From NCBI RefSeq assembly GCF_009177095.1, contig NZ_AP021861.1, positions 2,028,501 through 2,092,500 on the forward strand: a stretch of 64,000 bases of DNA. The letters run 5' to 3'. This document shows, in pieces, positions 21,386 to 53,540 of this stretch (position 1 is its first letter; each line of letters begins with the position of its first letter). The position numbers and the translations under genes are program-made. The stretch is from Lacipirellula parvula (lineage in GTDB: Bacteria; Planctomycetota; Planctomycetia; Pirellulales; Lacipirellulaceae). The notes under the pieces were generated by a model. The model did no database searches and was not told where the DNA came from. It saw nothing but the letters and a program-made list of their open reading frames with translations.

Positions 21386-22528
21386 ATGATGGAACGAGCA
21401 ACAGATATGCTGAGACGCGGCGTCCTGCCGTTCGCGATGGCGATGCCGTTGGCATGCGCCGCCGGGAATTCTGCCTTCGCGATGAATCATCCGGACGCCC
21501 TCAAGCAGGGCGGCGGAATCATCGCTGCCTCGGCGTCGCCAACACGCGGCTTCCCGAACGCGTCGCTGCGCCGTCAGCAAGAGGAAGACCAAGATCAAAT
21601 CTTCCTCATCAACACGCGCGCTATCGGCACGCGCTGCGAAGGCGACGCAATGTGTTCCGGCCTGGTGTGCGAAACGCACGCCGGCCTCGGCGGCCCGTAT
21701 GGTTGGGAATCGTTGAGCTGGGAACAGCTCTCCGCGGAACTCGCCAAGCCGACGCCGACGATCATTTACATTCACGGCAATCGCGTCGACTGCGGCTACT
21801 CGAAGTCGCACGGCCTCGCGATGTACCGCTCACTTGCCAATCGTCGTCAAGACGACGGACCGATCCGCTTCATCATCTGGTCGTGGCCGTCGTCGCAGAT
21901 TCGCGGCCAAGTGCGCGATTATCAGGTGAAGGCCGCCCGCACGAAGCAAGTCGGCTGGCAGCTCGCGTGGGCGATCGATCAGCTGCCGGCTGAAACGCCC
22001 CTCGCGGTGATCGGCTACAGCTACGGCGCCCGCGTGGCGACTGGCGCGCTGCACCTGCTCGCCGGCGGCCGACTCGGCTCGTTGGAGCTGAATGAACGTC
22101 TCCACCCCGAGCGCCCGCCAGTGCGAGCCGCCCTCGTCGCCGCCGCACTCGACGCCAATTGGATCCGTCCCGGCGGCTACCACGGTCGCGCGCTCGAACA
22201 AATCGACGAGTTACTGCTCGTCAACAATCACCTTGACCCGGCAATGCGGTTCTATCACCTCGCAATGGAAAGCGGCGCCCGCCCGCTGGGCTTCGGCGGC
22301 ACTGGCGGCCTCGGCCAATTCGCCACGCGCGTTCGTTCGGTTGACGTGACGAATTCCGTCGGCCGCCATCACGCGATCGAGGAGTATCTCTCCTCCTCCA
22401 GTCGCGTGACGCGCGTCCTGGAACAAGTCGCCCAGTTCCCGCCGCAACATCCGCAAGAGCCGGTCCTCGCCGACGCAGAAATGTCTGACGCCGAAGCCTC
22501 GGAAACCGAAGTCGCATTAGCCCCGTAA
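21386..22528 (+). CDS. Exported alpha/beta-hydrolase-fold protein
   Basis: Protein of 380 aa with an N-terminal signal-like segment (GVLPFAMAMPLACAAGNSAFA). The hydrolase fold is shown by the oxyanion-region motif IIYIHGN, the nucleophile elbow GYSYG with S212, and a late GRHHAIEEYL that can supply the catalytic His. An esterase or lipase role is expected; substrate unknown. Three in-frame ATG codons lie close together (21386, 21389, 21407); 21386 is kept. The last codons and stop (ALAP-stop) lie inside a GCCCCGTAAGGGGC palindrome of the repeat array that follows. Confidence 0.75.
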   Translation: MMERATDMLRRGVLPFAMAMPLACAAGNSAFAMNHPDALKQGGGIIAASASPTRGFPNASLRRQQEEDQDQIFLINTRAIGTRCEGDAMCSGLVCETHAGLGGPYGWESLSWEQLSAELAKPTPTIIYIHGNRVDCGYSKSHGLAMYRSLANRRQDDGPIRFIIWSWPSSQIRGQVRDYQVKAARTKQVGWQLAWAIDQLPAETPLAVIGYSYGARVATGALHLLAGGRLGSLELNERLHPERPPVRAALVAAALDANWIRPGGYHGRALEQIDELLLVNNHLDPAMRFYHLAMESGARPLGFGGTGGLGQFATRVRSVDVTNSVGRHHAIEEYLSSSSRVTRVLEQVAQFPPQHPQEPVLADAEMSDAEASETEVALAP

Positions 22529-22715
22529 GGGGCGACATGTTGTAGCCAGGGGCGTAAGCCCCTGGAATCGGTGCGGCCTAGGTGATGAAAGCCCCAGCGG
22601 GGCGACACCTTCCAGCTGAGTACGAACGATGTCGCCCCTCGCGGGGCTGCGTTTGGCTAAACCAGGGGCTCGCGCCCCTGGCTACAATATGCCGCCCCTG
22701 CCGGGGCTCCCGCCG
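22518..22715. repeat. Array of GC-rich palindromes
   Basis: Several GC palindromes in a row: GCCCCGTAAGGGGC around 22520-22533, CCAGGGGCGTAAGCCCCTGG at 22546-22565, GCCCCAGCGGGGC near 22591, GTCGCCCCTCGCGGGGC near 22631, CCAGGGGCTCGCGCCCCTGG at 22662-22681 and GCCCCTGCCGGGGC near 22694. The two long ones are inverse copies with flanking GTAGCC/GGCTAC, so the whole block can fold as one large hairpin made of smaller ones. Confidence 0.85.
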
Positions 22716-43388: not shown

Positions 43389-43400
43389 GGAAAATGCGAT

Positions 43401-43587
43401 TTAACACAGAGAGCACAGAGGACACAGAGAGAAAGCTTTAGCCCGCGAATCACGCGAATCACGCGAATAATTTTTGCTGCAAGCGAACGCGATATCGAGT
43501 TGACACTAACACGGCAATTATTTCATTCGCGTGATTCGCGGGCTGTCTTTACCGCATTCTCCGTGTCCTCTGTGCTCTCTGTGTTAA
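43401..43587. repeat. Two different dyads nested in one another
   Basis: Outer arms 43401-43431 and 43557-43587 belong to the CACAGAG family (29 of 31 positions pair). Inside them lies a second, unrelated dyad: AGCCCGCGAATCACGCGAAT... at 43440-43470 and its inverse at 43518-43544, the left arm having one more CACGCGAAT word than the right. The inner spacer is AT-rich. Confidence 0.92.
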
Positions 43588-43624
43588 AGTAATCCCCGTA
43601 TTCAAGCAAGTCCCCGAGCCAGCC

Positions 43625-44836: not shown

Positions 44837-44907
44837 CTTTGCGCCTTCGCGCCTTTGCGTGAGATCTCAATCAGAAATGTCTCACGCAAAGGCGCGAAGG
44901 CGCAAAG
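44837..44907. repeat. Perfect 28-bp dyad, AAGGCGCGAAGG family (copy 2)
   Basis: Arms 44837-44864 and 44880-44907 are exact inverse copies. The spacer TCTCAATCAGAAATG (15 bases) resembles that of the copy at 53411-53487 and, when reversed, that at 47126-47200. Confidence 0.93.
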
Positions 44908-47003: not shown

Positions 47004-47253
47004 AACCGCCAAGGACGCCAAGGACGCCAAGGTTCGCCAAGGGAATGCGGGAATGTGAACCACAACGGCACGACGAGCACGACGAAAGGCAGGTTATGTC
47101 AGAGCTAAGTGTTCTCAAGCCGTATTTCTTTGCGCCTTCGCGCCTTTGCGTGAGACGATTCTGATTGAGATCTCACGCAAAGGCGCGAAGGCGCAAAGAA
47201 GAGCAGGGAAATAGCAGTTGCCCTTGGCGAACGTTGGCGTCCTTGGCGGTTCA
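47004..47253. repeat. Composite nested repeat, about 250 bp (copy 1)
   Basis: Outer arms: AACCGCCAAGGACGCCAAGG... (47004-47043) and its inverse (47221-47253), the left having one more AGGACGCCAA word. Inside, AACCACAACGGCACGACGAG with CACGACGAAAG (about 47058-47088), then a perfect 30-bp AAGGCGCGAAGG-family dyad (47126-47155 with 47171-47200). Homologous, module by module, to 53296-53527. It fills the gap before oppA; nothing else is seen there. Confidence 0.92.
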
Positions 47254-47391
47254 AATTGAAGCTCAGTAAGTTCTTTGCCCCGTCCTCTCCGTCCGGTAAG
47301 CTAACAACGGCGGTTCGCAGGCGTCGGCTGGGTGAATCAAGCATTCACGTACCTACCTACTCACTTACTCACCTAAACCACCCAGCCCATC

Positions 47392-49326
47392 ATGCCACTG
47401 GATGGCCGATCGCTGTTCCCCTGGATCGCCGGCATTGCGATTCTCGGCTCCATTGGCTGGGCCCTCAACCGTGGCCAACTTCCGCCTGCCGACTTCACGT
47501 TCATCAACGGCACGGAAGTCAAAAGCCTCGATCCCGCGATCGTTACCGGCCAGCCCGAGAACCGGATGATCAACGCCCTCTTCGAAGGGCTGACGAGCTG
47601 GAACCCCAAAACGCTCAAGCCCGAGCCAGGCGTCGCCGAGCGTTGGGACGTCTCCGAAGACCTGCTCACCTACACCTTCCACCTGCGGAAGGATGCGAAG
47701 TGGTCCGACGGCTCGCCGGTGACGGCCCACGACTTTATCTACTCGATGCGGCGGTTTCTCGACCCCCGCACCGCGGCCGAGTATTCGTACCAAGCGTGGT
47801 ACGTAAAGAACGCCAAACGCTACAGCGGCGGCGGCCGCGCGGTGCGGCCGGGCGACAACGTTGAGGTGGAACTCAACGTCGATCCCGACTCCTCGAACGC
47901 GCTCCGCGGCGAACTCGTGCATGGCAAGCTCGTTCGCATCGAAGATAAGAGCGGCCAGGAACTCACCGGCGAAGCGCTCGACAAGGCCGCCGCCGACGAG
48001 ACGCTGAAGATCGAAGACTGGGTCTTCGTCATCTCCACCGAAGCGGGCGAAGAACGCTTCCGCTACGCCGACGACGGGGCTGCCGCCGACAACGAGCCAG
48101 CGAAAGGCGAACGCCACGCACGGCAGATTCTGCTTGACCTGAAAGAAGTCGGCATGCGGGCAATCGACGATCACACGCTCGAGTTCACGCTCGAAAACCC
48201 GACGCCTTACTTCCTCACGCTCGTCGGCTTCTACCCGCTCTTCCCCGTGCAGCAAAAGTGCGTCGAAACCTTCGGCTCGCCCGATTGGACCGACGTCGAG
48301 AACATCGTTTGCAACGGCCCCTTCAAGCCGGAGTTCCGCCACTTGCGCGATCGGACCCGCGTCGTGAAGAACGAGCACTACTGGGATCGCGACAATGTCA
48401 AACTCAATAGCGTCGACTTCCTCGCCGTCGAGTCGAGCACCACGGCGCTCAACCTCTACCTCACCGGCGAGGTCGACTGGATTTACGACGTCCCCGCCTC
48501 GGCGCTGCGGACGTTGATGGCCGAGCGGCCGGTGCGAGACGATCTCAATCCGCAGCCGATGCTCAACACCTACTTCTATCTCCTCAACGTTAAACGCAAG
48601 CCATTCGACGACGTGCGGGTCCGCAAGGCGTTGTCGATGGCGATGGATCGCAATGAACTCACCCAAGTCCTGCTCGGCGCCGGCGAACTGCCGACCTACA
48701 GCCTCGTCCCGCCGGGGCTGCCCGGCTACGATCCGCCGCAGGGCCCGCACGAAGACGTTAAAGAGGCTCAGCGGCTCCTCGCTGAAGCGGGCTATCCGAA
48801 CGGACGCGGCTTCCCCGAGATCGAGATCCTTCACAACACGCACGAAGGCCATCACGCGATTGCCCAACTCATCCGCGACCAATGGCGGAAGAATCTCGGC
48901 ATTAGCGTCAAAACTCGCAACGAAGAGTGGGCCACCTTCAACGCCAGCCAGCGGCAACTCAAGTACGATGTCAGCCGCCGTGGCTGGATTGGCGACTACG
49001 CCGACCCCAACACGTTCCTCGACATGTTCGTTACCGGCGGCGAGAACAACTGCACCGGCTGGGGCAACGCCGAGTACGACCGACTGATCGCCGCCGCAGC
49101 GACCGAAACAGATTTCACGAAGCGGCTCGAACTCCTCCATCAGGCCGAAGCGATCCTCATGGACGAGCAGCCGATCATTCCGTTCTACAACTACGTCAGC
49201 AAGAACATGGTGAAGCCGACCATCCGCGGCTTTTACAACAACATTCAGGACACCCATCCGCTCTCGGCGATCTGGATCGACGCCGAAGAGAAGACGCCCA
49301 ATCCGTTCATGGAGGGCCGGGAATGA
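47392..49326 (+). CDS. oppA: Oligopeptide ABC transporter solute-binding protein
   Basis: Family 5 extracellular solute-binding protein (644 aa) that captures peptides for an ABC importer. N-terminal anchor helix LFPWIAGIAILGSIGWAL without a lipobox cysteine, so it may be membrane-tethered rather than lipid-anchored. Family blocks: GTEVKSLDPAIVTGQPENRM, then GVAERWDVSEDLLTYTFHLR and DDVRVRKALSMAMDRNEL. About 90 residues (137-225) are an insert compared with typical OppA, rich in charged residues. The stop overlaps the next start (ATGA). No Shine-Dalgarno sequence is seen. Confidence 0.92.
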   Translation: MPLDGRSLFPWIAGIAILGSIGWALNRGQLPPADFTFINGTEVKSLDPAIVTGQPENRMINALFEGLTSWNPKTLKPEPGVAERWDVSEDLLTYTFHLRKDAKWSDGSPVTAHDFIYSMRRFLDPRTAAEYSYQAWYVKNAKRYSGGGRAVRPGDNVEVELNVDPDSSNALRGELVHGKLVRIEDKSGQELTGEALDKAAADETLKIEDWVFVISTEAGEERFRYADDGAAADNEPAKGERHARQILLDLKEVGMRAIDDHTLEFTLENPTPYFLTLVGFYPLFPVQQKCVETFGSPDWTDVENIVCNGPFKPEFRHLRDRTRVVKNEHYWDRDNVKLNSVDFLAVESSTTALNLYLTGEVDWIYDVPASALRTLMAERPVRDDLNPQPMLNTYFYLLNVKRKPFDDVRVRKALSMAMDRNELTQVLLGAGELPTYSLVPPGLPGYDPPQGPHEDVKEAQRLLAEAGYPNGRGFPEIEILHNTHEGHHAIAQLIRDQWRKNLGISVKTRNEEWATFNASQRQLKYDVSRRGWIGDYADPNTFLDMFVTGGENNCTGWGNAEYDRLIAAAATETDFTKRLELLHQAEAILMDEQPIIPFYNYVSKNMVKPTIRGFYNNIQDTHPLSAIWIDAEEKTPNPFMEGRE

Positions 49327-50243
49327 TTACGTTCATCATTCGGCGCCTCTTCTGGCTAGTCGTCACGATGTGGGCGGTCTTCACCGTTTCGTTCATCTTA
49401 ATGCGAAGCGTCCCCGGCGGACCGTTCGACGGCGATCGGCAGGTTGCGCCGGAAATTAAGCGGAACATGGAGCGGCGCTACAACCTCGACAAGGAACTAC
49501 ACGAGCAGTACTTCATTGAGCTGAAACGGACGTTCCTCGAAGGCGATCTCGGCTTCTGCATGCGGCTGACCGACCGCAGCGTGAACTACGTGATCGCCCA
49601 AGGCTTGCCGATCTCGGCGGCGCTCGGCGTGCTGGCGCTCGCCTTTGCGATGACGTTCGGCCTGCTGACCGGCGTCGTCTCGGCGGCACGGCGAGGGAGT
49701 GCGCTCGACGTCGGCTTGCGACTCGTCGCGACGATCGGCATCGCGCTGCCGAGCTTCGTCGTCGCGACGATTTGCATCATGTTGTTCGTGTTCATGATTC
49801 CACTCTTCCCAGCTGCCGGTTGGGGAAGCGCGTCGCAACTCGTGCTGCCGGCGTTTTGCCTCGGCGCCCCGTACGCCGCGGAAGTCGCGCGGATCTCGCG
49901 TACGAGCTTGCTCGACGCCCTTTCGCAAGACTACATCCGCACCGCCCGGGCGAAGGGCCTCAGCAGCAGCCGTGTGATCCTCGTCCACGGCTTGCGAAAT
50001 TCGCTGCTGCCGGTCGTTTCGTTCCTCGGCCCCGCAGTGGCCGGCATTCTTACTGGCTCGCTCGTCGTCGAGACGGTGTTCGCGATCCCCGGGCTGGGAA
50101 TCTACTTCGTGAAAGCGGCCGAGCTCCGTGACTTCACCCTCGCGATGGGCGTGGTGCTGCTCTACACGCTCGTGCTCTACACGATGAACTTCCTCGTCGA
50201 CCTCTCCTACGCCTACCTCGATCCCCGCGTGGAGCTGGAATGA
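49323..50243 (+). CDS. oppB: Oligopeptide ABC transporter permease
   Basis: Inner-membrane permease of the OppB/DppB type (306 aa). N-terminal MITFIIRRLFWLVVTMWAVF and the GGPFD segment are typical, and the EAA-like cytoplasmic loop is RTARAKGLSSSRVILVHGLRN. It has six predicted helices. The gene overlaps oppA by four bases, so translation is coupled. Confidence 0.94.
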   Translation: MITFIIRRLFWLVVTMWAVFTVSFILMRSVPGGPFDGDRQVAPEIKRNMERRYNLDKELHEQYFIELKRTFLEGDLGFCMRLTDRSVNYVIAQGLPISAALGVLALAFAMTFGLLTGVVSAARRGSALDVGLRLVATIGIALPSFVVATICIMLFVFMIPLFPAAGWGSASQLVLPAFCLGAPYAAEVARISRTSLLDALSQDYIRTARAKGLSSSRVILVHGLRNSLLPVVSFLGPAVAGILTGSLVVETVFAIPGLGIYFVKAAELRDFTLAMGVVLLYTLVLYTMNFLVDLSYAYLDPRVELE

Positions 50244-50270
50244 CGGCGTTTGTATTTCATATGAATAAAG

Positions 50271-50360
50271 ATCTCACGCAAAGGCGCAAAGACGCAAAGA
50301 AGACTGCCAGCAAGTTGGGATGCTGCATTTCCTTCGCGCCTTTGCGCCTTTGCGTGAGAT
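50271..50360. repeat. AAGGCGCAAAG dyad between oppB and oppC (copy 4)
   Basis: Arms 50271-50299 and 50332-50360 with two mismatches (ATCTCACGCAAAGGCGCAAAG at the outer side). The word order in the inner part differs from copies 2, 3 and 5. It interrupts an otherwise compact operon. Confidence 0.9.
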
Positions 50361-50374
50361 AAAAAAAGAGCAGT

Positions 50375-51670
50375 ATGTCGACGCCAGACGCCAAATCGAC
50401 CGCCGGAACATCGCTCGCTCGCGATGCCTGGCGGCGGCTGCGCCGCGATTGGGCCGCCATGGCCGCGCTCGCCACGCTGGTGGTCGTCTGCTTGCTGGCT
50501 GCCATCACGCCGCTACTGCCGCTGCAGCCGCCCGATCGCGTGCAGACCGATTTGCAATATCGCCCGCCGACGCTCGCGCCGCTCTGGATCGACGGGTTTT
50601 CATTGAACCTCGAAGCGATTGAAACCGGCCCCGCCGAAGTCGCGGAACTCCGCGGCCAATTGCCAGAACTCGAGGCCGCTCACCGTAAGGCGACCGAGGC
50701 GTTTCGCACCGCCGAGCGCGAGCTTCCCGCCGACCTGCCGCCGCTCGAACGTGAAGCCGAGCTGGAACCATTGCGCACAGCTCGCAACGACGCCTTCGAA
50801 GCCCTGGTCCGCAAGCACAACGAAATCGACGACGTCATCCAATCGCCCTACGCTAAGGCTGGCTTCGCCGACCTCGGCCCGCTGAGCCGCTGGATGGTCC
50901 GCACCCGCTACGCGATATTCGGCGAGTCTCAGCTCAACTCGCTATGGGGCCGCGATATCTTCGGCCGCGATCTCCTCTCCCGTGTCTTCTGGGGCGCCCG
51001 CATCTCGCTGATGGTAGGGCTCGTGGCGACCGCAGTCTCGCTAGTCATCGGCGTCACCTACGGCGCCGTTGCCGGGTACTTCGGCGGTTGGCTCGACGAT
51101 GCAATGATGCGATTCGTCGATCTGCTCTACTCGATCCCGTTCATCTTCGTGGTGATCTTCATCATCACGATTCTCAACGACGACAGCACGCCCGAAAGTT
51201 GGGGCACGCGTCTCGCCTATCTCGGCCTCAACAAAATCACGGTCTTCTACCTCGTCGTCGGCGCCATCTACTGGCTGACGATGGCCCGCGTCGTTCGCGG
51301 CCAAGTGATCTCGCTGAAGACCGAGCCGTTCGTCGAGGCCGCCCGCTCGCTAGGCGCCGGCCACTGGCGGATCATCTTCCGCCATCTGCTGCCGAACGTC
51401 TCGAGCGTTGTGCTCGTTTACCTGACGCTTACCATCCCGCGGGTGATGCTCTTCGAAGCATTCCTCTCGTTCCTCGGCCTCGGCGTCGAAGCTCCCGACG
51501 TCTCCTGGGGCATGCTCGCCCGCGAGGGAATCAACGATCTCACCCCAGTAAAAATTTATTGGTGGCTCGTCCTCTTCCCCAGCCTCGCCCTCGGCGTGAC
51601 GCTGCTGGCCTTAAACTTCCTCGGCGACGGCGTCCGCGACGCGCTCGACCCGCGCATGAAAGACCGGTAG
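50375..51670 (+). CDS. oppC: Oligopeptide ABC transporter permease with coiled-coil insert
   Basis: OppC/DppC permease (431 aa; typical length about 300). First membrane segment at residues 26-50 (MAALATLVVVCLLAAITPLL). Then an insert of about 110 residues (60-165, e.g. ELRGQLPELEAAHRKATEAF), charged and heptad-like. The usual OppC core follows from LWGRDIFGRDLLSRVFWGAR, with EAARSLGAGHWRIIFRHLLP as the EAA loop. No ATPase gene (oppD, oppF) follows; the next gene is on the other strand. The ATPases must be encoded elsewhere. Confidence 0.92.
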   Translation: MSTPDAKSTAGTSLARDAWRRLRRDWAAMAALATLVVVCLLAAITPLLPLQPPDRVQTDLQYRPPTLAPLWIDGFSLNLEAIETGPAEVAELRGQLPELEAAHRKATEAFRTAERELPADLPPLEREAELEPLRTARNDAFEALVRKHNEIDDVIQSPYAKAGFADLGPLSRWMVRTRYAIFGESQLNSLWGRDIFGRDLLSRVFWGARISLMVGLVATAVSLVIGVTYGAVAGYFGGWLDDAMMRFVDLLYSIPFIFVVIFIITILNDDSTPESWGTRLAYLGLNKITVFYLVVGAIYWLTMARVVRGQVISLKTEPFVEAARSLGAGHWRIIFRHLLPNVSSVVLVYLTLTIPRVMLFEAFLSFLGLGVEAPDVSWGMLAREGINDLTPVKIYWWLVLFPSLALGVTLLALNFLGDGVRDALDPRMKDR

Positions 51671-51688
51671 GAGTAATGACGAATTCCC

Positions 51689-51797
51689 GAATGACGAATG
51701 GGAATAGAAGGCAGCGCCGTCCTCGCCAGCATTCGTCATTCGTCATTCGTCATTCGTCATTCGTCATTTGCTCATTTGCTCATTTGCTCATTTGCTC
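51689..51797. repeat. ATTCGTC and ATTTGCTC tandem arrays
   Basis: A CGAATGACGAATG arm (51689-51701) faces five exact tandem copies of ATTCGTC (51731-51765), followed directly by four tandem copies of ATTTGCTC (51766-51797). The second array encodes the last residues and the stop codon of the amidohydrolase on the other strand. Copy number may vary between strains. Confidence 0.93.
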
Positions 51798-53150
51798 ATT
51801 CTTCTTCGCGAGTAAATCAAGCGCAGCGGCCGTCAGCGTTCGCACGCCGGTCGTCAGCGTGCCGTCGATGTCGGGGTAGAACAGCGGCGAGTGGAGCGAC
51901 GGCGGCTGGACGGCCTCTTTCTCGTACTTGTCGAGCCGCGCCTGGTCGACGGCCCCCACAGAGATCATCAGAATCGGCACGCCCGCTCGGCCGTAGGCGC
52001 CGAAGTCTTCGCCTCCCATCGAGGGTTCCGACTCCTCCACCTTGTTTTTGCCCAGTTCCTTCTGAATCACCGGCTCCAACCGCTTCGCTAAGTCGGCGTC
52101 GTTCGCCAGGGCAGGGGTGCCGTCTGAAATGGTGATGTCCGGCTGCGGCGCTCCCGCACTCGCGGCAGCGGCGTTCGCCTTCCGTTTAATCGCATCAAGA
52201 ATCTGCTTCCGCACTTCGGGGGTGTAGCTCCGCACCGTGAGTTGCAGCGTGCAGTCGTCGCTGATGACGTTGTGCTTCGCCCCGCCGTGGATCGAACCGA
52301 CTGTCACCACCACCGGTTCGATCGGCTTCACCTCCCGGCTGGCGATCGTTTGTAGGTCGAGCACCAGCTTCGCCGCGATGACGATCGGGTCGATCGTCAT
52401 GTGCGGATAAGCGCCGTGACCCCCTTTGCCGTGGATGACGATATCGACGCTGTCGACGTTGGCCATCGCATAGCCTGGGCGCCACGCGACGTTGCCGGTC
52501 GGTCGGTCGGCGGCAACGTGCAGCGCGAGGGCGTAGTCTGGTTTCGGGAAGCGGCGGAACAACCCGTCGTCGAGCATCTTCTGCGCGCCGGCGCCTTTTT
52601 CTTCCGCAGGTTGGAAGATCGGCACAAGCGTTCCGCTCCACTGGTCGCGATGCGTTGCCAGATATTCGAGCGTCCCCATCAGCATCGTCATGTGCATGTC
52701 GTGCCCGCACGCGTGCATCACGCCGACCGTCGCCCCGCGCGCGTCGCGCACCTTGACTTGCGACGCGTACGGCAACCCCGTCTCTTCCACCACCGGCAGG
52801 CCGTCCATGTCGGCCCGCAGGAGCAGCGTCGGACCGGCGCCATTCTTCAGCACGCCGACAACGCCATGCCCGCCGACTTTCTCAGTGACTGTGAAGCCCA
52901 GTTTGCGAAGCGTCTCGGCCATCGTTGCCGCCGTTTTTTCCTCTTCGTGCGATAGTTCCGGCGCCTGATGGAGCGACTTGTAAAATTGGGTAAGCTCGGG
53001 CAACGCGCCTTGCACCCAGTCGCTCGCCGACTCGGCGCCGCTGGCGGGGGGGATGGCGCCAGCCAGCAGACACAAAAAGAGCCAAAACCCGTTGGCGAGG
53101 GAAAACAGGCGCGTTACACTTCGGGCATTCATTCGACTGCTCTTGTTCAT
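51780..53150 (-). CDS. Secreted M20-family amidohydrolase
   Basis: Metal-dependent amidohydrolase or carboxypeptidase of the M20D type (456 aa), similar to N-acyl-amino acid, hippurate and IAA-amino acid hydrolases. Signal peptide LFSLANGFWLFLCLLAGAIPPASGA. Metal ligands: the HACGHDMHMT block with Cys, PAEEKGAGA with catalytic Glu, and HVAADRPTGN; the lid domain has HGKGGHGAYPH. The end SEPSMGGEDFG has the last metal ligand. The C-terminus NEQMSK and stop are encoded in the ATTTGCTC tandem array. Start could also be 53132. Confidence 0.88.
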   Translation of the reverse strand: MNKSSRMNARSVTRLFSLANGFWLFLCLLAGAIPPASGAESASDWVQGALPELTQFYKSLHQAPELSHEEEKTAATMAETLRKLGFTVTEKVGGHGVVGVLKNGAGPTLLLRADMDGLPVVEETGLPYASQVKVRDARGATVGVMHACGHDMHMTMLMGTLEYLATHRDQWSGTLVPIFQPAEEKGAGAQKMLDDGLFRRFPKPDYALALHVAADRPTGNVAWRPGYAMANVDSVDIVIHGKGGHGAYPHMTIDPIVIAAKLVLDLQTIASREVKPIEPVVVTVGSIHGGAKHNVISDDCTLQLTVRSYTPEVRKQILDAIKRKANAAAASAGAPQPDITISDGTPALANDADLAKRLEPVIQKELGKNKVEESEPSMGGEDFGAYGRAGVPILMISVGAVDQARLDKYEKEAVQPPSLHSPLFYPDIDGTLTTGVRTLTAAALDLLAKKNEQMSK

Positions 53151-53295
53151 TGGAGCCGCTGTGAGTTCATCGCTCGCAGCGGCTCCTCTTATTTGGTGAA
53201 CGAAGCGTTCACGAACAAGCAGCAGCCCGCCGCGGCACGGCTGATTGTAATCCCCCACGCCGCCGGTGCCATTCTTCTCTGGCTGAGAAATGCCT

Positions 53296-53527
53296 CACCG
53301 CCAAGGACGCCAAGGTGCGCCAAGGAAATACAGGGGCGGTTGAACCACAACGGCACAACGAGCACAACGAAAGTCAGATCAAGCCAGAGAGAATTACTTT
53401 CAAGCCGTATTTCTTTTGCGCCTTCGCGCCTTTGCGTGAGATCAAAATCAGAAATGTCTCACGCAAAGGCGCGAAGGCGCAAAAGAAGATGGAGTACTTA
53501 TAGTCCCCCTTGGCGTCCTTGGCGGTT
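53296..53527. repeat. Composite nested repeat, about 232 bp (copy 2)
   Basis: Outer arms ACCGCCAAGGACGCCAAGG... (53296-53325) and its inverse (53508-53527). Inside, AACCACAACGGCACAACGAG with CACAACGAAAG (about 53343-53371), then a perfect 31-bp AAGGCGCGAAGG-family dyad (53411-53441 with 53457-53487). Matches 47004-47253 in order and in the linking text CAAGCCGTATTTCTTT. The gap 53151-53540 shows no gene. Confidence 0.92.
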
Positions 53528-53540
53528 CAATTCTTTCTCT

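Follow-up and report, generated by a model that had tools for sequence, protein, structure and literature searches.

As described in the relevant parts of PMC8604942 and PMC8794818, inter-strand template switching between inverted repeats occurs in yeast genes (PMC8604942) and in rRNA and microRNA hairpin loops (PMC8794818), and leaves two marks, inversion of the spacer and homogenisation of the arms. In these accounts the inverted spacers change 2 to 5 bp in yeast (PMC8604942), while those in rRNA usually have 4 nt and no more than 7-8 (PMC8794818). According to excerpts of PMC3733652 and PMC2817692, GTAG- and CGTC-tagged repetitive extragenic palindromic (REP) sequences and bacterial interspersed mosaic elements (BIMEs) are high-copy palindromes that are joined into composites, and REPs have been reported from Planctomycetes too (PMC3733652, same excerpt). 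Here, two composite hairpin elements, copy 1 and copy 2, are described from a 64,000-nt stretch (hereafter the window, whose positions serve as coordinates) of the genome of Lacipirellula parvula (G000; 6.92 Mb, single contig). Both belong to a family of hairpin repeats with inverted-repeat arms that is dispersed in the genome and partly nested. It is probable that the spacers of this family occasionally invert in situ, with inter-strand template switching as the most likely route.

As in the template-switch inversions of PMC8604942 and PMC8794818, to the extent that these are excerpted, a spacer is replaced by its own reverse complement while the flanks stay fixed. What differs here from the few bp inverted in yeast genes or rRNA loops in those excerpts is the length of the spacers (12 to ~25 nt), their place in a high-copy bacterial repeat and the presence of both states among congeners. 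The excerpted survey PMC13155455, which covers inverted repeats with spacers of up to 8 bp, also concerns shorter spacers than those of the L. parvula family.

Two composites and their repeat family

Copy 1 (47004-47251; this and all following features are given on the plus strand) lies between divergent SpoU_methylase (minus strand) and SBP_bac_5 (plus strand) genes. It reads A - B - C core - A', with A being the outer dyad, B a one-arm module and C the core dyad with its loop. The left outer arm, an A module (CGCCAAGGACGCCAAGG) with a 9-nt period, spans 47004-47043 and is followed by the single B arm (AACCACAACGGCACGACGAGCACGACG, 47058-47088), the 30-nt left C arm (47126-47155), the 15-nt loop CGATTCTGATTGAGA (47156-47170), the right C arm (47171-47200), which is 100% complementary to the left one, and the right outer arm A' (47221-47251). 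Copy 2 (53297-53528), located between Peptidase_M20 and Ham1p_like genes that are both on the minus strand, has the same A - B - C core - A' layout, with a left C arm of 31 nt (53411-53441), the 15-nt loop TCAAAATCAGAAATG (53442-53456), a 31-nt, 100% complementary right C arm (53457-53487) and a right outer arm at 53508-53528. The outer arms pair with 100% complementarity as well, over 18 nt in copy 1 (47004-47021/47234-47251) and 19 nt in copy 2 (53297-53315/53508-53526), the outer dyad being CCGCCAAGGACGCCAAGG plus its inverse in both. Within the B module (AACCACAACGGCAC...), CACAACGGCAC lies at 47061 and 53346, and the text CAAGCCGTATTTCTTT at 47116 and 53401. Single-stranded DNA folding gives the two copies a stability well beyond that of shuffled sequences (z = -13.3 and -14.8).

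The original prediction, made from the sequence of the window, had listed the same module order for both copies, and all named modules were indeed located in each; B is present in both, but as one arm only. It had also proposed that the inner spacer of copy 1 is closer to the reverse complement of its counterpart, and the alignment agrees. Between 47056-47131 and 53341-53416 the copies are 83% identical in the same orientation, while the loops match at 11/15 positions inverted and 4/15 direct. An inverted-minus-direct difference as large was obtained in 0 of 5000 shuffles (p = 2e-4).

A search of the genome places the two composites among many. L. parvula has 33 exact occurrences of the core pattern TTTGCGTGAGA-N5..30-TCTCACGCAAA (reversed control 0), and its outer arm, with up to 2 mismatches, gives 63 forward and 59 reverse matches (control 0). 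Next to L. parvula, two congeners, G003 and G004, were used for comparison. Core counts derive from searches and fetched loci, the best 40 of 245 candidates being scored by BLAST-type search in L. parvula, 40 of 85 in G003 and 40 of 75 in G004. Under looser matching, the fetched loci hold at least 95 cores, at least 55 in L. parvula and at least 20 in each congener, numbers which are neither totals nor comparable between the three genomes as at most 30 loci per genome were fetched. The loops of these inside-out cores measure 12 to 21 nt. In the opposite, outside-in polarity, with TCTC ends outside, the C arm occurs at 24 exact places in L. parvula, 17 in G003, 2 in G004 and 3 in a further genome, G082. 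The loop of the outer dyad A can also enclose dyads of other types, such as GAACCGCAGATGAACGC, CCCGCGAATCACGCGAA and CCACGAAACACACGAAA.

Exact arm-pattern matches were found in 16 of 294 sampled Planctomycetota genomes (L. parvula included; G003 and G004 outside the sample), led by G082 with 152 and L. parvula with 138, the next genome having 10. A contig scan for the pattern returned 23 stretches, mostly from G003 and G004, the other labels being Pirellulales, Rhodopirellula, Blastocatellia, Desulfobacterales, Pseudomonadota and Alphaproteobacteria. Hairpins of the same arm repeat are seen in contigs labelled Blastocatellia (L225), Desulfobacterales (L240) and Pseudomonadota (L246), of which the latter two seem to be identical in the neighbourhood of the match. 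In the alphaproteobacterial stretch (L233), only the short pattern is present, without surrounding GCGCC repeats. One core occurs with the same loop at two places of the L. parvula genome (G000:C1:1097289 and 4764287), and likewise in G003 (G003:C1:1279186 and 4547630). In the L. parvula pair, 60 flanking bases on each side are identical too, and its second member was merged as a duplicate in the core set.

Like REP and BIME elements, the family is high-copy, palindromic and joined into composites. Unlike REPs, it has C and A arms that consist of phased 8-9-nt repeats and end in GATCTC or AACC. The GTAG or CGTC tag that the excerpt of PMC3733652 gives for one end of the palindrome in the REP/RAYT system (RAYT, REP-associated transposase) was not found on the C and A arms, to which this comparison applies; the B, D, E and F modules lie outside it. 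A Y1 transposase gene was not found beside the repeats either: when modules were sought within about 1.5 kb around the 4 Y1_Tnp matches of the genome (L248-L251, at most 3 mismatches), one weak A-like match appeared, at L251 only. Miniature inverted-repeat transposable elements (MITEs) are short, gene-less elements with terminal inverted repeats. The L. parvula repeats are likewise short, gene-less, bounded by terminal inverted repeats and nested in one another. They differ from MITEs in that target-site duplications around 45 outer elements showed no clear excess, none of the lengths and offsets tried giving more than 3 exact matches, and in that no parent transposase was identified. Rfam, at gathering threshold over the whole window, gave 2 matches, neither at the composites, and a plasmid collection queried with copy 1 gave no match. 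Among the matches listed, titles and abstracts of open-licence PMC papers gave no description of such a nested palindrome family, and a literature search with the module strings returned 4 papers with off-topic titles.

Spacer orientation between orthologous loci and within genomes

Orthologous loci were compared by aligning each pair of spacers directly and inverted (3000 shuffles, p < 0.01), covering 22 inside-out and 17 outside-in pairs from 31 loci. Pairs that crossed over to an adjacent dyad within a cluster were left out, as were pairs with weak or one-sided flanks, except T14/T33, which has one matching flank. Of these 39 pairs, 6 were called flipped (4 inside-out, 2 outside-in), 10 same (4 and 6) and 23 neither way. 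The 16 called pairs represent 16 different loci. At 6 of them, 4 being strong cases, the spacer corresponds to its orthologous counterpart in reverse complement, with unmoved flanks. At the scale of species divergence, spacer inversion is real.

Of the four strong flips, the cleanest is T05/T31 (L257 of G003 and L284 of L. parvula), an outside-in dyad with a 23-nt spacer that scores -6 direct and 15 inverted (0 of 4000 shuffles), its adjoining flanks being 76% and 73% identical. These spacers are mutual best matches among 28 and 24 spacers, the next best scoring 5 and 8, which marks the spacer as locus-specific. T21/T40 scores -2 direct and 14 inverted (0 of 4000 shuffles), with 85% identity in both flanks. 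At S56/S77 (L137:9738/L136:10226), a site between permease and peptidase genes, G003 and G004 carry the same composite with the flank text in the same orientation, and the loops CAATCTTGATTTAGA and TCTAAATCAAGATTG are exact reverse complements (15/15 inverted). L. parvula has a GACGAAT dyad there instead of the composite. At S60/S86, the loops match at 14/15 positions inverted and the left flank is nearly identical. Orientation is kept at similar divergence in S31/S85, S46/S58, T02/T32 and T22/T39, among others.

Several candidates did not hold. T01/T06 and T24/T45 first scored as flipped but failed once the palindromic part of the arms was trimmed. T10/T11 had first scored as flipped, and S06/S57 and S28/S66 had first looked flipped; all three were called neither way by the uniform test. 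S31/S61 and S61/S85 were dropped as pairs because the sequence adjoining the core does not align. The 44.8-kb locus was also called neither way.

Within genomes, the side of the single B arm, at a distance of up to 105 nt from the core, set the orientation of a composite. B-like matches beyond 105 nt were ignored in four composites (L004, L018:1582, L020:1534 and L173), and cores flanked by two B arms, one per side, were excluded. Among the oriented composites of L. parvula, 17 of 18 share one loop orientation, copy 2 included, with copy 1 as the exception. Therefore, copy 1 is probably the flipped member and copy 2 an ordinary one. It had been anticipated that a single orientation shared by all other copies would speak against a flipped core. 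This is nearly the situation in L. parvula, but both orientations occur in G003 (2 versus 2) and G004 (2 versus 3, plus 2 called neither way). In G004, the paralogues at the copy-1 site and the 44.8-kb site share their flank text in one orientation, while their 12-nt loops match at 11/12 positions inverted (difference p 0.018).

How the spacers may have turned

The flips are likely due to an already known mutational process. In inter-strand template switching, a polymerase copying one arm would move, at the other arm, onto the complementary strand, copy the spacer from there and return, by which the spacer would be turned in situ. The original prediction had attributed the flipped core to recombination or strand exchange at perfect inverted arms. 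Loop inversion within fixed flanks, in the window copies as well as at orthologous loci, is in line with the first part, with template switching fitting the published signature; RecA recombination may be the flipping process at some loci. Perfect arms are found in both window cores but not at every flipped locus, as the arms of S56 match at 20/30 positions and those of S77 at 21/30. Arm homogenisation, the second expected mark of template switching, is weakly supported. Based on 89 of the 95 cores, 6 having been dropped beforehand, 12 of 140 rare arm alleles are common to both arms of a core in the three genomes pooled, where 3.6 are expected (3 of 3000 permutations).

A number of observations weigh against inversion by template switching. 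None of the genomes on its own shows a strong excess of shared rare alleles (256, 92 and 44 of 3000 permutations), and overall, arms are no more alike within their own core than between different cores (25.95 versus 25.79 of 30; 496 of 2000 permutations). All 15 L. parvula composites with loops of at least 17 nt are in one orientation. Furthermore, the copy-1 locus compared with its G004 orthologue (S00/S75) scores -1 direct and 1 inverted and is called neither way, and the flips of S05/S73 and S49/S82 are weak. In random non-orthologous pairs (400 shuffles), a flip was called in 29/400 inside-out and 9/400 outside-in pairs, and 'same' in 34/400 and 7/400, because the loops share a family consensus; at these rates about 2 of the 6 flips and about 2 'same' calls are expected by chance. 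The loop of S56/S77 and S60/S86 is also found at other loci, so ectopic replacement is possible at these two sites. Likewise, T21 scores 15 with T39, a dyad of similar kind located 1.1 kb away from T40, versus 14 with its orthologue T40, so that an exchange between neighbouring dyads is possible.

The last two points would agree with ectopic gene conversion, in which a copy elsewhere, alignable either way via its palindromic arms, overwrites the loop. The loop CAATCTTGATTTAGA is common to several loci and genomes and the arms are interchangeable between cores. Flips of consensus loops could be explained in this way, since such loops recur at several loci. The locus-specific spacer of T05/T31, which is nevertheless inverted, is not easily explained. 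In addition, scores of at least 10 occur in 8 of 17 outside-in orthologous pairs versus 3 of 639 other pairs, indicating that about half of the outside-in spacers have been recognisably retained and not replaced. Ectopic conversion is regarded as unlikely. Independent insertion, in which the core element would have entered one slot on two occasions and in opposite orientations, would agree with the re-use of slots suggested by different dyads occupying the same intergenic slot in different species, but outside the core, S56/S77, S60/S86 and T21/T40 have homologous sequence that stays in register as far as the arms, making such insertion very improbable. A dedicated site-specific invertase flipping the loop as a regulatory switch would suit the position of copy 1 between divergent genes, that of another dyad between two permease genes and the orientation differences between species at some loci, but hardly deserves credence with inside-out loops ranging from 12 to 21 nt and no evident shared crossover site.

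One bacterial genus thus offers a natural replicate set of dozens of near-alike hairpins, with both orientations at several orthologous sites. Such a set could address the frequency of spacer inversion and its dependence on arm and loop length. A more far-reaching idea, held to be highly doubtful, is that the hairpins are genome-wide orientation toggles. The loop-inverting process would then act on dozens of dyads, so frequently that orientation is nearly free between sister species, and would change the transcription of neighbouring genes, forming an undescribed layer of phase variation in Planctomycetota that works without an invertase.

Intergenic slots and neighbouring dyads

The copy-1 site of G003 has A arms enclosing a CCACGAAACAT-type stretch where B and C would be. 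In G004, the A dyad at the copy-2 site encloses another dyad plus a B arm, while the palindrome of G003 at this site is a different one. A C core without A arms is found in the window at 44837-44907, with the loop TCTCAATCAGAAATG (44865-44879), where the orthologous slot of G003 and G004 holds an A-B-C-A' composite. These comparisons point to a nested palindrome family with 8-9-nt phased arms, whose members re-use intergenic slots interchangeably across species.

The outer palindromes seem to carry a direction, as their ends are unlike. Among 45 outer elements of the fetched loci, 31 have TTG in front of the arm at one end, 2 at both ends and 12 at neither (Fisher p 0.004). Where TTG is present at one end, the opposite end is often ACT, ATT, GGC or TGC.

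Several other dyads are located in the window. A C-arm dyad of opposite polarity, with TCTC ends outside, lies at 50271-50360 between two BPD_transp_1 permease genes; each of the three species compared has such a dyad between a pair of permease genes (L136:8673-8772 and L137:8194-8272 in the others). Another C dyad of outside-in polarity is located at 1212-1314. At 51675-51800, a GACGAAT/ATTCGTC dyad with tandem repeats is present where both congeners hold an A-B-C-A' composite, and 43400-43590 contains nested dyads, with an outer TTTAACACAGAG..CTCTGTGTTAAA enclosing an inner CCCGCGAATCACGCGAAT dyad. Finally, two Rfam matches to Acido-Lenti-1 RNA (46.1 and 43.6 bits) are found at 22519-22708, on opposite strands and approximately 100 bp apart.

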